From positions 1-34,669 of IMG/VR virus record IMGVR_UViG_3300001473_000068: DNA of 34,669 bases; one strand, 5' to 3'. The notes under the pieces were generated by a model. It made no database searches. It was given only the letters and a program-made list of their open reading frames with translations, and was not told the origin of the DNA. The position numbers and the translations under genes are program-made. Shown piece after piece: positions 25,724 to 27,656 of this stretch. This DNA comes from a virus. The number at the start of each line of letters is the position of its first letter. The stretch's first letter is position 1.

Positions 25724-25987
25724 TTATGGGTCGGTATTCGGGAAGCTATGCTTGGTCGGCGCGCCTCCCCGGTACAATGCGAGATTTGGTGAAGCGGATT
25801 GCCGTCCGCTGGAAACCTCGAATGAATTAGATTGAGTTGAAAGAACCCCACCCCGCCGTTTGTCTGTGGCGTCCGCATGGGTGAGGCTGGCCCCGCAGTG
25901 CGTTTTCCTCGTTCGCACTGCGGGGCCAATTTTGTCTGCGGAGGGGCTATCGACCGTCCAAGGTCCGGGTGTGGGTGCCTTGGTCAT
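25724..25987 (-). CDS. Short protein with a TPGPW N-terminus, possibly decayed
   Basis: ATG 25987 overlaps the Cro-like stop (ATGA), giving 87 residues. The first residues, MTKAPTPGPWTVDSPSADK, match the 'TPGPW' module found in small phage Ead-type proteins and also in the 385-residue gene at 32315-33472. The rest is Ser/Thr/Arg-rich and unlike a folded domain, and is partly encoded by a 14-bp perfect hairpin. It may be a remnant, or a short N-terminal product whose downstream part was replaced by the antisense micro-gene and its terminator. Confidence 0.4.
   Translation of the reverse strand: MTKAPTPGPWTVDSPSADKIGPAVRTRKTHCGASLTHADATDKRRGGVLSTQSNSFEVSSGRQSASPNLALYRGGAPTKHSFPNTDP
25726..25830 (+). 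CDS. 34-residue basic micro-protein, antisense to the early operon
   Basis: ATG 25726 follows a clear ribosome site (ACAGGAG, 9-base spacer) and encodes MGRYSGSYAWSARLPGTM followed by an amphipathic basic helix, RDLVKRIAVRWKPRMN. It runs against the leftward operon and is followed 58 bases later by a strong hairpin with a T run in the same direction. A rightward promoter is not obvious. It could be a small regulator or host-acting peptide, but this is unproven. Confidence 0.4.
   Translation: MGRYSGSYAWSARLPGTMRDLVKRIAVRWKPRMN
25889..25933 (+). terminator. Strong rightward terminator, 14-bp perfect stem
   Basis: A perfect 14-bp inverted repeat (25889-25902 with 25914-25927, 11-base loop) is followed rightward by AATTTTG. 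Leftward there is no T run. It fits termination of the antisense micro-gene transcript before it reaches the Cro-like gene, and it lies inside the weak frame at 25724-25987. Confidence 0.65.
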
Positions 25988-26217
25988 TCTGCGGCCTCGG
26001 TTGGTGCTTTCTGGCCCCACACTTCCGGAGATACGGACACTCCGTCACGCTCCAAGATTGCCGTGTGCTGCAGATAGTATCGTGGGGGAATTTCCTTTCG
26101 CCGGATCCAGCTATTCACGTTCCCTACGGTTTGCCCGAACCGTTCTGCGACATCGCGCGCCCTACCGTAGTGCCGCACAATTTCTGCCACTGTTTTGAGT
26201 TCAATCGCTTTGGTCAT
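25984..26217 (-). CDS. Cro-like small DNA-binding regulator
   Basis: A 77-residue protein from ATG 26217. 'AEIVRHYGRARDVAERFGQT' followed by 'VGNVNSWIRRKEIPPRYY' is a small helix-turn-helix of the Cro/YdaS type, and 'SPEVWGQKAP' near the end is typical of phage Cro-like proteins. It is the first gene of the leftward operon, divergent from the XRE repressor, with operators between. The promoter (TTGACA-17-TATAAA) predicts a transcript beginning at the ATG itself, so the mRNA is probably leaderless. The frame is open to 26268, but the extra residues would cover the promoter. Confidence 0.8.
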   Translation of the reverse strand: MTKAIELKTVAEIVRHYGRARDVAERFGQTVGNVNSWIRRKEIPPRYYLQHTAILERDGVSVSPEVWGQKAPTEAAE

Positions 26218-26223
26218 GCCAAT

Positions 26224-26274
26224 TTTATAAGCAATATGCTTATTATTGTCAATAAGCAAAACGCTCATGGATAG
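26224..26274. promoter_or_regulatory. Immunity control region: divergent promoters with operators O1 and O2
   Basis: Leftward: TTGACA (26252-26247), 17-base spacer, TATAAA (26229-26224). The spacer holds operator O1, ATAAGCAATATGCTTAT (26227-26243), a perfect 6+6 palindrome. Rightward: TTGTCA (26246-26251), 17 bases, GGATAG (26269-26274, weak). The spacer is exactly O2, ATAAGCAAAACGCTCAT (26252-26268), an imperfect copy. The same 17-bp site occurs twice more at 27241-27289. O1 should shut the early leftward promoter and O2 should set repressor level. Confidence 0.8.
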
Positions 26275-26305
26275 CTAGCTGGGAAAATTGCAGTATTTGG
26301 CTACC

Positions 26306-26602
26306 ATGATTCCGACCGGAAACAGCGCCGATGACATCAGGCAGCGACTTGTGTTGCTCCGCATCGCGTGCGTGGGCAACGAGCGCGGCGATCAAGCAAA
26401 ATTCGCTGCGGCCTCAGGCATTACTCCAAGCGAGTGGGGCAACCACGAGCACGGCAAGTCGCTTTCAGTTAGAAAGGCGATGATTCTCAGAAACCGGTGG
26501 AGGGTTACCCTTGACTGGATTTACTGTGGAGACCAGAGTTCGTTGCCGTTTGAACTCCAGACTCGTTTGGTCGAAGTTTCGGAGCAGATGAAAACGGCGT
26601 GA
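26306..26602 (+). CDS. XRE-family repressor candidate (CI-like, short)
   Basis: A 98-residue protein with an XRE-type helix-turn-helix ('IRQRLVLLRIACVGNERGDQ', 'KFAAASGITPSEWGNHEHGK', 'SLSVRKAMILRNRWRVTLDW'). It is divergent from the Cro-like gene with operators between, the position of a CI gene. It lacks the C-terminal LexA/S24 peptidase domain, so it would not be self-cleaved in an SOS response. The ATG at 26306 has no ribosome site; a TTG at 26288 after GGGA is an alternative. Its 3' end overlaps a convergent gene by 98 bases. Confidence 0.7.
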   Translation: MIPTGNSADDIRQRLVLLRIACVGNERGDQAKFAAASGITPSEWGNHEHGKSLSVRKAMILRNRWRVTLDWIYCGDQSSLPFELQTRLVEVSEQMKTA

Positions 26603-26798
26603 TATTGCTGACTTCGTTTGGCTGCTTGATATCCGTGGGCTTGTAAATGCCCATAATACTGTGAGCCAGATTTAGTACGCGGATCGCATCTTCTCGATCC
26701 TCTGGAAGCATACCAACGACGCCGCACGCAATTCTATTTATGATTATGTCACTGGTTTTATTATCTAACGGAGAATGTCTCAAAACGCACTCCTGCAT
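26505..26798 (-). CDS. Hypothetical protein convergent with the repressor gene
   Basis: ATG 26798 (97 residues) is preferred over an upstream TTG at 26858. The core 'DNKTSDIIINRIACGVVGML', then 'PEDREDAIRVLNLAHSIMGI', is clearly protein-like and helical; the C-terminal third is Ser/Asn/Pro-rich and overlaps the repressor gene on the other strand for 98 bases. Leftward transcription of it would produce RNA antisense to the end of the repressor mRNA, which could lower repressor synthesis. No family is recognised. Confidence 0.5.
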   Translation of the reverse strand: MQECVLRHSPLDNKTSDIIINRIACGVVGMLPEDREDAIRVLNLAHSIMGIYKPTDIKQPNEVSNITPFSSAPKLRPNESGVQTATNSGLHSKSSQG

Positions 26799-26879
26799 AT
26801 CCTGGTGAGCCCTACCCAAGAAGAAGTGTACGGTTTGACAATACCGCTTACAACCCAAAACAGTTAACCCAAGAGCGGG

Positions 26880-27235
26880 TTTTCTGTATTCTCAATGCGT
26901 TCAATCCTTAGGCAACGACGCAGTAATCCCTAGCCAACCAGAAGTGATCTGGCTGCCGGATTACTGCGCGGTATTCTCAATTGCGACGCACCTTGAGGTT
27001 TCCGCATGCATCCACGCTGGACCATATGACGGTCCATAGCACCACGCGCTTCATGATGTGACTTCTATTGGCCGGTGAAGCCTCAGGCGTCGGGATCACA
27101 CTCCCGTATCGGTTACGCCTTCCCTCTGGTTATCTTGCGGTCCAGCCCGCGATGCGCTCCCAGTCTCCCGATACAAACCGCCAATGCGACCACCAGCGCA
27201 CCCGGACATTGACGCGGTTTTGGTATCACAAAACA
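26880..27235. other. Gene-poor structured stretch between the immunity genes and the rightward operon
   Basis: No credible gene is present in these 356 bases. Several strong inverted repeats are: CGCAGTAATCC/GGATTACTGCG (11 bp) with AGCCA/TGGCT nested inside (about 26919-26968); TGGACC/GGTCCA near 27018-27036; CGGGA/TCCCG near 27090-27106; GTATCGG/CCGATAC spanning about 27106-27175 around GCGG/CCGC. A 13-14-base direct repeat (TATTCTCAATGCG and TATTCTCAATTGCG) begins near 26887 and 26972. It could be a small RNA, a structured leader of the leftward gene at 26798, or an origin. Strand is not settled. Confidence 0.45.
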
Positions 27236-27240
27236 TTTTT

Positions 27241-27294
27241 ATAAGCAATATGCTCATTTTTAGTGTTGTAAACTAAGCAATTTGCTTATATATT
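27241..27294 (+). promoter_or_regulatory. Rightward early promoter with operators O3 and O4
   Basis: TTGTAA (27266-27271), 17 bases, TATATT (27289-27294) form a good promoter for the operon starting at 27318. Operator O4, CTAAGCAATTTGCTTAT (27273-27289), fills the spacer. O3, ATAAGCAATATGCTCAT, lies at 27241-27257. Leftward over O3 a TATAAA box (27243-27238) is placed exactly as in the 26224 promoter, but its -35 (ACACTA) is poor, so leftward activity would be weak. Confidence 0.8.
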
Positions 27295-27317: not shown

Positions 27318-27656
27318 ATGCACACCATCAAGACAAAAGTCCCATACATCGGCGAAGACGAAGTGCTGCAGATCATCGTGAGCAACACGGGTGATCGCTA
27401 CATTGAAGAGTCCGACTTTCTGGCCAAGACCTACGCCACGAAAGCCGACGTGCTGCCGCTCCTGAATGACGAAGCGCAGCGGGTTATCCGGTTCGATTTC
27501 CAGACCTTGAAAGGCGAGGACATCACCGAAGAGTTGGCCCAAGCCTATCTGGACGGTCAACAGCCCTACACATGGGATGAAAGCACCCTCCCCGATTACG
27601 TGAAGAAATCGCAGGCATGGGAAGACCACTGCGAAGACCATGGGGTGGCGGCATGA
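27318..27656 (+). CDS. First gene of the rightward operon, hypothetical
   Basis: A 112-residue acidic protein with an excellent start (CGGAGGTTGAT before ATG) directly downstream of the operator-controlled promoter. Visible stretches are 'DEVLQIIVSNTGDRYIEESD' and 'LNDEAQRVIRFDFQTLKGED'. Its composition (many Asp/Glu) and first position suggest a strongly expressed early phage protein such as a host-directed inhibitor, but no family is recognised. Confidence 0.75.
   Translation: MHTIKTKVPYIGEDEVLQIIVSNTGDRYIEESDFLAKTYATKADVLPLLNDEAQRVIRFDFQTLKGEDITEELAQAYLDGQQPYTWDESTLPDYVKKSQAWEDHCEDHGVAA

Follow-up and report, generated by a model that had tools for sequence, protein, structure and literature searches.

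A probable lambda-type immunity region in a new phage, with candidate operators in both early promoters and a cro mRNA predicted to be leaderless

Introduction

In phage lambda, leaderless cI mRNA is made from its maintenance promoter. For region immB of the telomere phages N15, phiKO2 and PY54, the published account gives N15 and phiKO2 three OR sites and two OL sites, and PY54 a single OR3. PY54 also provides a precedent for leaderless transcripts at such a switch, as its cI and cro mRNAs were both found by RACE to be leaderless (PMC4488713). The authors of the report on Brucella phage BiPBO1 state that they could not predict its operator sites (PMC4729917).

Here we analysed an IMG/VR virus contig over its whole length of 34,669 bases, referred to as the window. 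In it, a repressor gene is flanked by two clusters of one palindrome family, whose members O1 and O4 overlap the early promoters of the two arms. This is very probably a temperate-phage immunity region of the lambda type, arranged as the mirror image of lambda's, with Cro and repressor acting on a shared palindrome. As such it is a known kind of immunity region in a new phage, an ordinary lambda-type switch. Its strongest new point is a sequence-based prediction of a leaderless cro, set in an operator-promoter geometry that recurs; the original prediction for this DNA had missed this trait of cro.

Results

The 98-aa product of the repressor gene (26306..26602, plus strand) was recognized as an XRE/434-type HTH protein by profile and predicted-fold matches. 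Profile A4 matches the 434 repressor (1.3e-7) and P22 C2 (3.4e-6), and the predicted model of the window protein is an all-helical HTH (pLDDT 90.9) close to 434 Cro and the 434 repressor, though with weak Foldseek E-values; 434 Cro is its second match, at probability 1.00 but E 0.24. Judged by profile and model, the repressor is an XRE/lambda-repressor-like HTH protein with a 434/P22 C2-like helical DNA-binding domain. The predicted 98-aa model shows no distinct oligomerisation domain at its C terminus. On the opposite strand, the gene for a 77-aa Cro-like protein (25984..26217, minus strand), whose ATG lies 6 nt after the −10 box, heads the leftward genes, which continue with a DnaT/primosomal-like gene and then structural genes. 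The rightward genes run from a first early gene of 112 aa (27318..27656, plus strand; GGAGG upstream) through to an ERF recombinase and an integrase.

For the model of the Cro-like protein (pLDDT 84.3), the four best Foldseek matches are all N15 Cro, at probability 1.00 but E 0.012–0.016. Its best Pfam match is YdaS_toxin, below the cutoff (E 0.0016, 18.6 bits versus 30), which would suit a toxin-antitoxin-like XRE/YdaS pair with autoregulatory sites rather than a lysogeny switch. Such a pair is quite improbable, as the nearest predicted fold is that of N15 Cro, replication genes lie downstream of cro, and the far operator pair sits on the promoter of the recombination and integration genes. 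The cut-off of 38 bits for the NCBIfam entry carph-isopro (NF046037), a name for which a literature search found no paper, is passed in the related loci L140 (41.5), L142 (39.3) and L143 (39.6); the window Cro fails it at 19.3 bits.

The original prediction listed four copies of one 17-bp palindrome at 26227, 26252, 27241 and 27273, and these proved real and beyond chance. Two lie between the regulator genes: O1 (26227..26243, ATAAGCAATATGCTTAT), inside the spacer of the cro promoter, matches ATAAGCANNNTGCTTAT without mismatch, and O2 (26252..26268, ATAAGCAAAACGCTCAT), 25 bp from O1 and over a weak repressor promoter, has two mismatches. The other two, with one mismatch each, lie upstream of the early gene at 27318: O4 (27273..27289, CTAAGCAATTTGCTTAT) between the −35 and −10 boxes of the rightward early promoter, and O3 (27241..27257, ATAAGCAATATGCTCAT) 32 bp upstream of O4. 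We refer to O1 and O2 as OR1- and OR2-like, to O4 as OL1-like and to O3 as OL2-like auxiliary candidate operators. Across the whole virus record, matches with at most two mismatches number four forward and none on the reversed control; with at most three, there are five versus 0.68 expected, a count reached by 0 of 100 shuffles. The two intergenic stretches are rich in AT (64% and 76%), which could produce palindromes near promoters by chance, but given the shuffles, the reversed control and a second, independent sample of relatives in which the layout recurs (see below), this explanation deserves virtually no credence.

Other features were observed between the repressor gene and the far pair O3-O4. 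A leftward ORF (26505-26858, minus strand) contains LPEDREDAIRVLN, resembling LPEDTADAIKILE in an ORF of the related locus L141 (4269-4460, minus strand); the two match by blastp at E 0.009 without composition correction and may represent a small conserved gene convergent to the repressor. Most conserved minus-strand ORFs in this interval, lying antisense to the last part of the repressor gene (its 3′ end), may be artefacts. A perfect 11-bp inverted repeat (26919-26968; CGCAGTAATCC / GGATTACTGCG, 28 bp apart) is a possible structured RNA or terminator-like element.

O1, O2 and O4 had each been placed within a −35/−10 pair at 17-bp spacing, which agrees with our analysis of O1 and O4. The leftward cro promoter (26224..26252, minus strand) consists of −35 TTGACA (26252-26247), 17 bp and −10 TATAAA (26229-26224), and scores 11/12, equalled by 0.3% of shuffled flanks. 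The rightward early promoter at O4 (27266..27294, plus strand; −35 TTGTAA, 17 bp, −10 TATATT) scores 9/12, which alone is not beyond chance (15.9% of shuffles) and is supported by the relatives. At O2, 17-bp spacing from TTGTCA gives GGATAG as the −10, only 1/6; the best fit for a weak rightward repressor promoter (26246..26275, plus strand) is −35 TTGTCA (26246-26251), 18 bp and GATAGC (3/6), no better than chance (64.9% of shuffles). O3 does overlap a TATAAA box (27238-27243, minus strand) at the same offset as O1, as had been noted; 17 bp further upstream stands the hexamer ACACTA (1/6), and a leftward promoter at O3 was dropped, as there is no −35 in the window and none recurs in relatives. 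The proposed match between palindrome length and spacer length therefore applies to O1, O4 and the homologous sites of relatives, and not to O2 and O3. Between the regulator genes, the −35 boxes of the divergent promoters overlap on opposite strands (TTGTCAA), so the cro and repressor promoters should exclude each other; O1 and O2 flank this shared box, hence the 25 bp between them.

Tblastn against phage records matched the repressor and Cro each to one record only, MW202785, in the same divergent order. No close relative was confirmed in IMG/VR by degenerate-peptide scans with the window repressor and Cro or by a search with a two-row repressor alignment, and no DNA similarity to phage and plasmid records was found. 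A genome scan with the two-row alignment yielded six loci, and a wider repressor alignment, run on 397 genomes of the order to which a Rhodomicrobium locus belongs, gave matches in 22; these diverged relatives sit mainly in Hyphomicrobiales genomes. For a first sample of 32 repressor-homologue loci, repeated palindromes were sought without promoter information, with 40 shuffles each. A palindrome family unmatched by any shuffle was present at 21 loci, and an OR/OL-like layout, with sites upstream of and beyond the repressor gene, at 20 of the 32 (19 by rule and L143 by hand, as a GC-rich tandem repeat outscored its operators). L156, whose palindrome family does not flank the repressor gene, was excluded, and L157 only tied the best shuffle when retested with other random shuffles. 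A clear flanking family was absent at 12 of the 32 loci. L144, a partial locus, was left out of later analyses, and L151 and other refetched copies were not recounted.

A second sample of 17 new loci contained 11 with a palindrome family beating every shuffle and 10 with a far pair at 30–31 bp. A divergent Cro was present at 11 of the 17, and nine of these have a −35 of at least 4/6 at 34–37 nt before the ATG, the exceptions being L214 (−35 only 3/6) and L212 (no ATG). A class-level sample of 12 loci gave a significant palindrome family in none and a divergent Cro at a convincing E-value in three, which indicates, at the level of sequence, that the layout goes with repressors that have a divergent Cro as partner, not with every homologue.

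At the 20 layout loci the leftmost site is preceded by a TTGAC-like box. Anchoring the loci on their operators places such a box upstream of both OR1 and OL1 at near-constant offset, and the cro ATG downstream at a nearly fixed offset. The distance between OL1 and OL2 is 29–32 bp in 19 of the 20 (25 in L108). That between OR1 and OR2 is 25 bp in the window and L108, 34 in L140 and 42–44 in most others with a clear OR2 (41–44 across these others), so the shared −35 box explains the spacing of the 25-bp group only. The common design is one operator in the cro promoter, an early-promoter pair 29–32 bp apart and the repressor gene between them. Among phages, Pan4 has OR sites 25 bp and OL sites 31 bp apart, and EBPR podovirus 2 has OR spacings of 25 and 26 bp and an OL spacing of 31 bp; judged by the same rule, two Bradyrhizobium phages showed no clear flanking palindrome family. 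In each of the four phages a −35 scoring 4/6 or better lies 35–37 nt before the ATG of a Cro-like gene. In EBPR podovirus 2 (L224) the three operators spaced by 25 and 26 bp lie upstream of gp65, between divergent regulators, and a fourth similar site is found about 225 bp further upstream.

If the sites were operators, they had been expected to be conserved wherever the regulators are. This is true of their position and not of their sequence, as the operators of relatives diverge widely (ATACCG...CGGTAT, TCTCACC...GGTGAGA, TTCCAT...ATGGAA, GTACAT...ATGTAC). The half-site doublet pattern itself occurs at 55 loci in IMG/VR, and at four of them (L018, L032, L044 and L057) it lies 105–209 bp upstream of a weak repressor-HMM match. 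In L018, L032 and L044 a different XRE gene is preceded by five TAAGCA...TGCTTA-like sites, and in L057 by four. With a different repressor and this number of sites, the four loci were rejected as switch homologues, and we read their doublets as an apparently separate use of similar sequence by another repressor type.

The cro mRNA of the window is predicted to be leaderless because the start codon lies where transcription should begin. For a promoter-blind profile, the ATG nearest the Cro HMM start was taken and the region 20–69 nt upstream was scanned for TTGACA; 37 loci were given, 36 used (L212 having no ATG) and 30 were non-redundant. Matches of at least 5/6 fell at 34, 35 and 36 nt before the cro ATG in 4, 8 and 4 of the non-redundant loci, 16 in total, and elsewhere numbered at most two per distance among the distances listed (those where at least three matches scored 4/6 or better). 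A Shine-Dalgarno-like motif precedes cro in only one of the 30. The HMM identified a divergent Cro at seven further loci, five of which carry a −35 of 4/6 or better at 34–37 nt before the ATG; in L142 the −35 is 3/6, and L180 has no −35 but does have a Shine-Dalgarno motif. These patterns predict that almost every relative with a divergent Cro makes a leaderless cro mRNA. A literature search covering titles and abstract openings found no description of leaderless cro in alphaproteobacteria or rhizobia.

To relate operators to their readers, we used 16 of the 20 layout loci, omitting L168, L169 and L178 as near-duplicates and L108 for its repressor of a different type; recognition-helix boundaries were set by us from the alignment. 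Half-site distance correlated with distance in the repressor recognition helix (r 0.44, p 0.0002) and in the Cro HTH (r 0.47, p 0.0002). The helix NTYNQYE, for instance, is shared by L140, L143 and L155, all of which use the half-site ATTCA. This covariation fits binding by both the repressor and Cro and singles out neither; since it involves both HTHs, the two cannot be told apart as binders. That only one of them reads the sites, the other using different DNA or a protein contact, would agree with the similar coupling of both HTHs at n=16 and with PY54, whose Cro is described as binding a single operator (PMC4488713), but in partial tests the signal for each HTH persists with the other held constant (p 0.0002–0.0036), and we consider a sole reader unlikely. 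Binding by both proteins remains our preferred reading. It revises the original proposal that a single repressor controls the leftward, rightward and its own promoters: one site family is indeed found there, by position and recurrence of the layout, but with both HTHs covarying, 'single' is too narrow. The palindromes might also serve as operators for a host regulator that the phage has recruited, and the record, being viral only, offers no host genome for a regulon search. However, operator sequence in relatives changes with the phage regulators and all four sites of the record surround the phage regulators, which makes a host regulator highly improbable.

Discussion

Building on the observed sites, gene order, promoter match at O1 and recurrence of the layout, we infer binding, affinities, cooperativity and leaderless transcription in the following switch. 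The divergently transcribed 98-aa repressor and 77-aa Cro-like protein would both read the 17-bp palindrome as dimers. Occupancy of O1, inside the spacer of the cro promoter, should keep RNA polymerase off the leftward replication genes. O2 would overlap the repressor's own weak promoter, and O4 would occupy the spacer of the early promoter that serves the genes for recombination and integrase. O3 lies three helical turns upstream of O4 and probably makes binding there stronger. The mRNA from which Cro is translated is probably leaderless. Looping between distant sites, as originally suggested, may occur: in relatives, too, the repressor gene has sites on both sides, but the model of the 98-aa repressor shows no separate domain for oligomerisation at the C terminus.

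Tentatively, and with more doubt than confidence, the relatives may represent a widespread switch lineage, mainly of alphaproteobacteria, with fixed geometry and leaderless cro, in which operators and both recognition helices co-diversify to give many immunity specificities on one chassis. If this were true, a leaderless cro would link the decision for lysis to the condition of the host's ribosomes. Because operator sequences differ so much, a single motif cannot find the operators of these prophages, whereas geometry works: an operator in the cro spacer, a −35 at 34–37 nt before the leaderless ATG and a far pair at 29–32 bp. The paired recognition helices and operators form a set for testing how immunity specificity diversifies.

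Compared with the OL-cI-OR region of lambda, the window likewise has a repressor gene between operator clusters, a divergent cro and operators in early promoters, and one arm leads to replication and the other to recombination and integrase genes. It differs in having two sites per cluster where lambda has three, in its 98-aa repressor, predicted to lack a separate C-terminal domain, and in a cro predicted to be leaderless where in lambda it is cI. Region immB of N15, phiKO2 and PY54 similarly has a divergent repressor and cro (PMC4488713), and, by predicted fold, the window Cro is matched best by N15 Cro. The divergent pair of BiPBO1, a temperate phage of a Rhizobiales host, is described as reminiscent of cI and cro (PMC4729917). 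Pseudanabaena phage Pan4 and EBPR podovirus 2 share OR sites 25–26 bp apart, OL sites 31 bp apart and the leaderless cro geometry, but have other operator sequences and, in EBPR podovirus 2, a third OR site. Both proteins have their nearest phage relative in Podoviridae sp. ct2G2228 (MW202785, Manatee Spring), at 37% and 26% identity. It differs in its operator, ATTCATG...CATGAAT, and its OR spacing of 34 bp, and shares the gene order, including the ERF and integrase genes on the right, as well as a far pair 31 bp apart.
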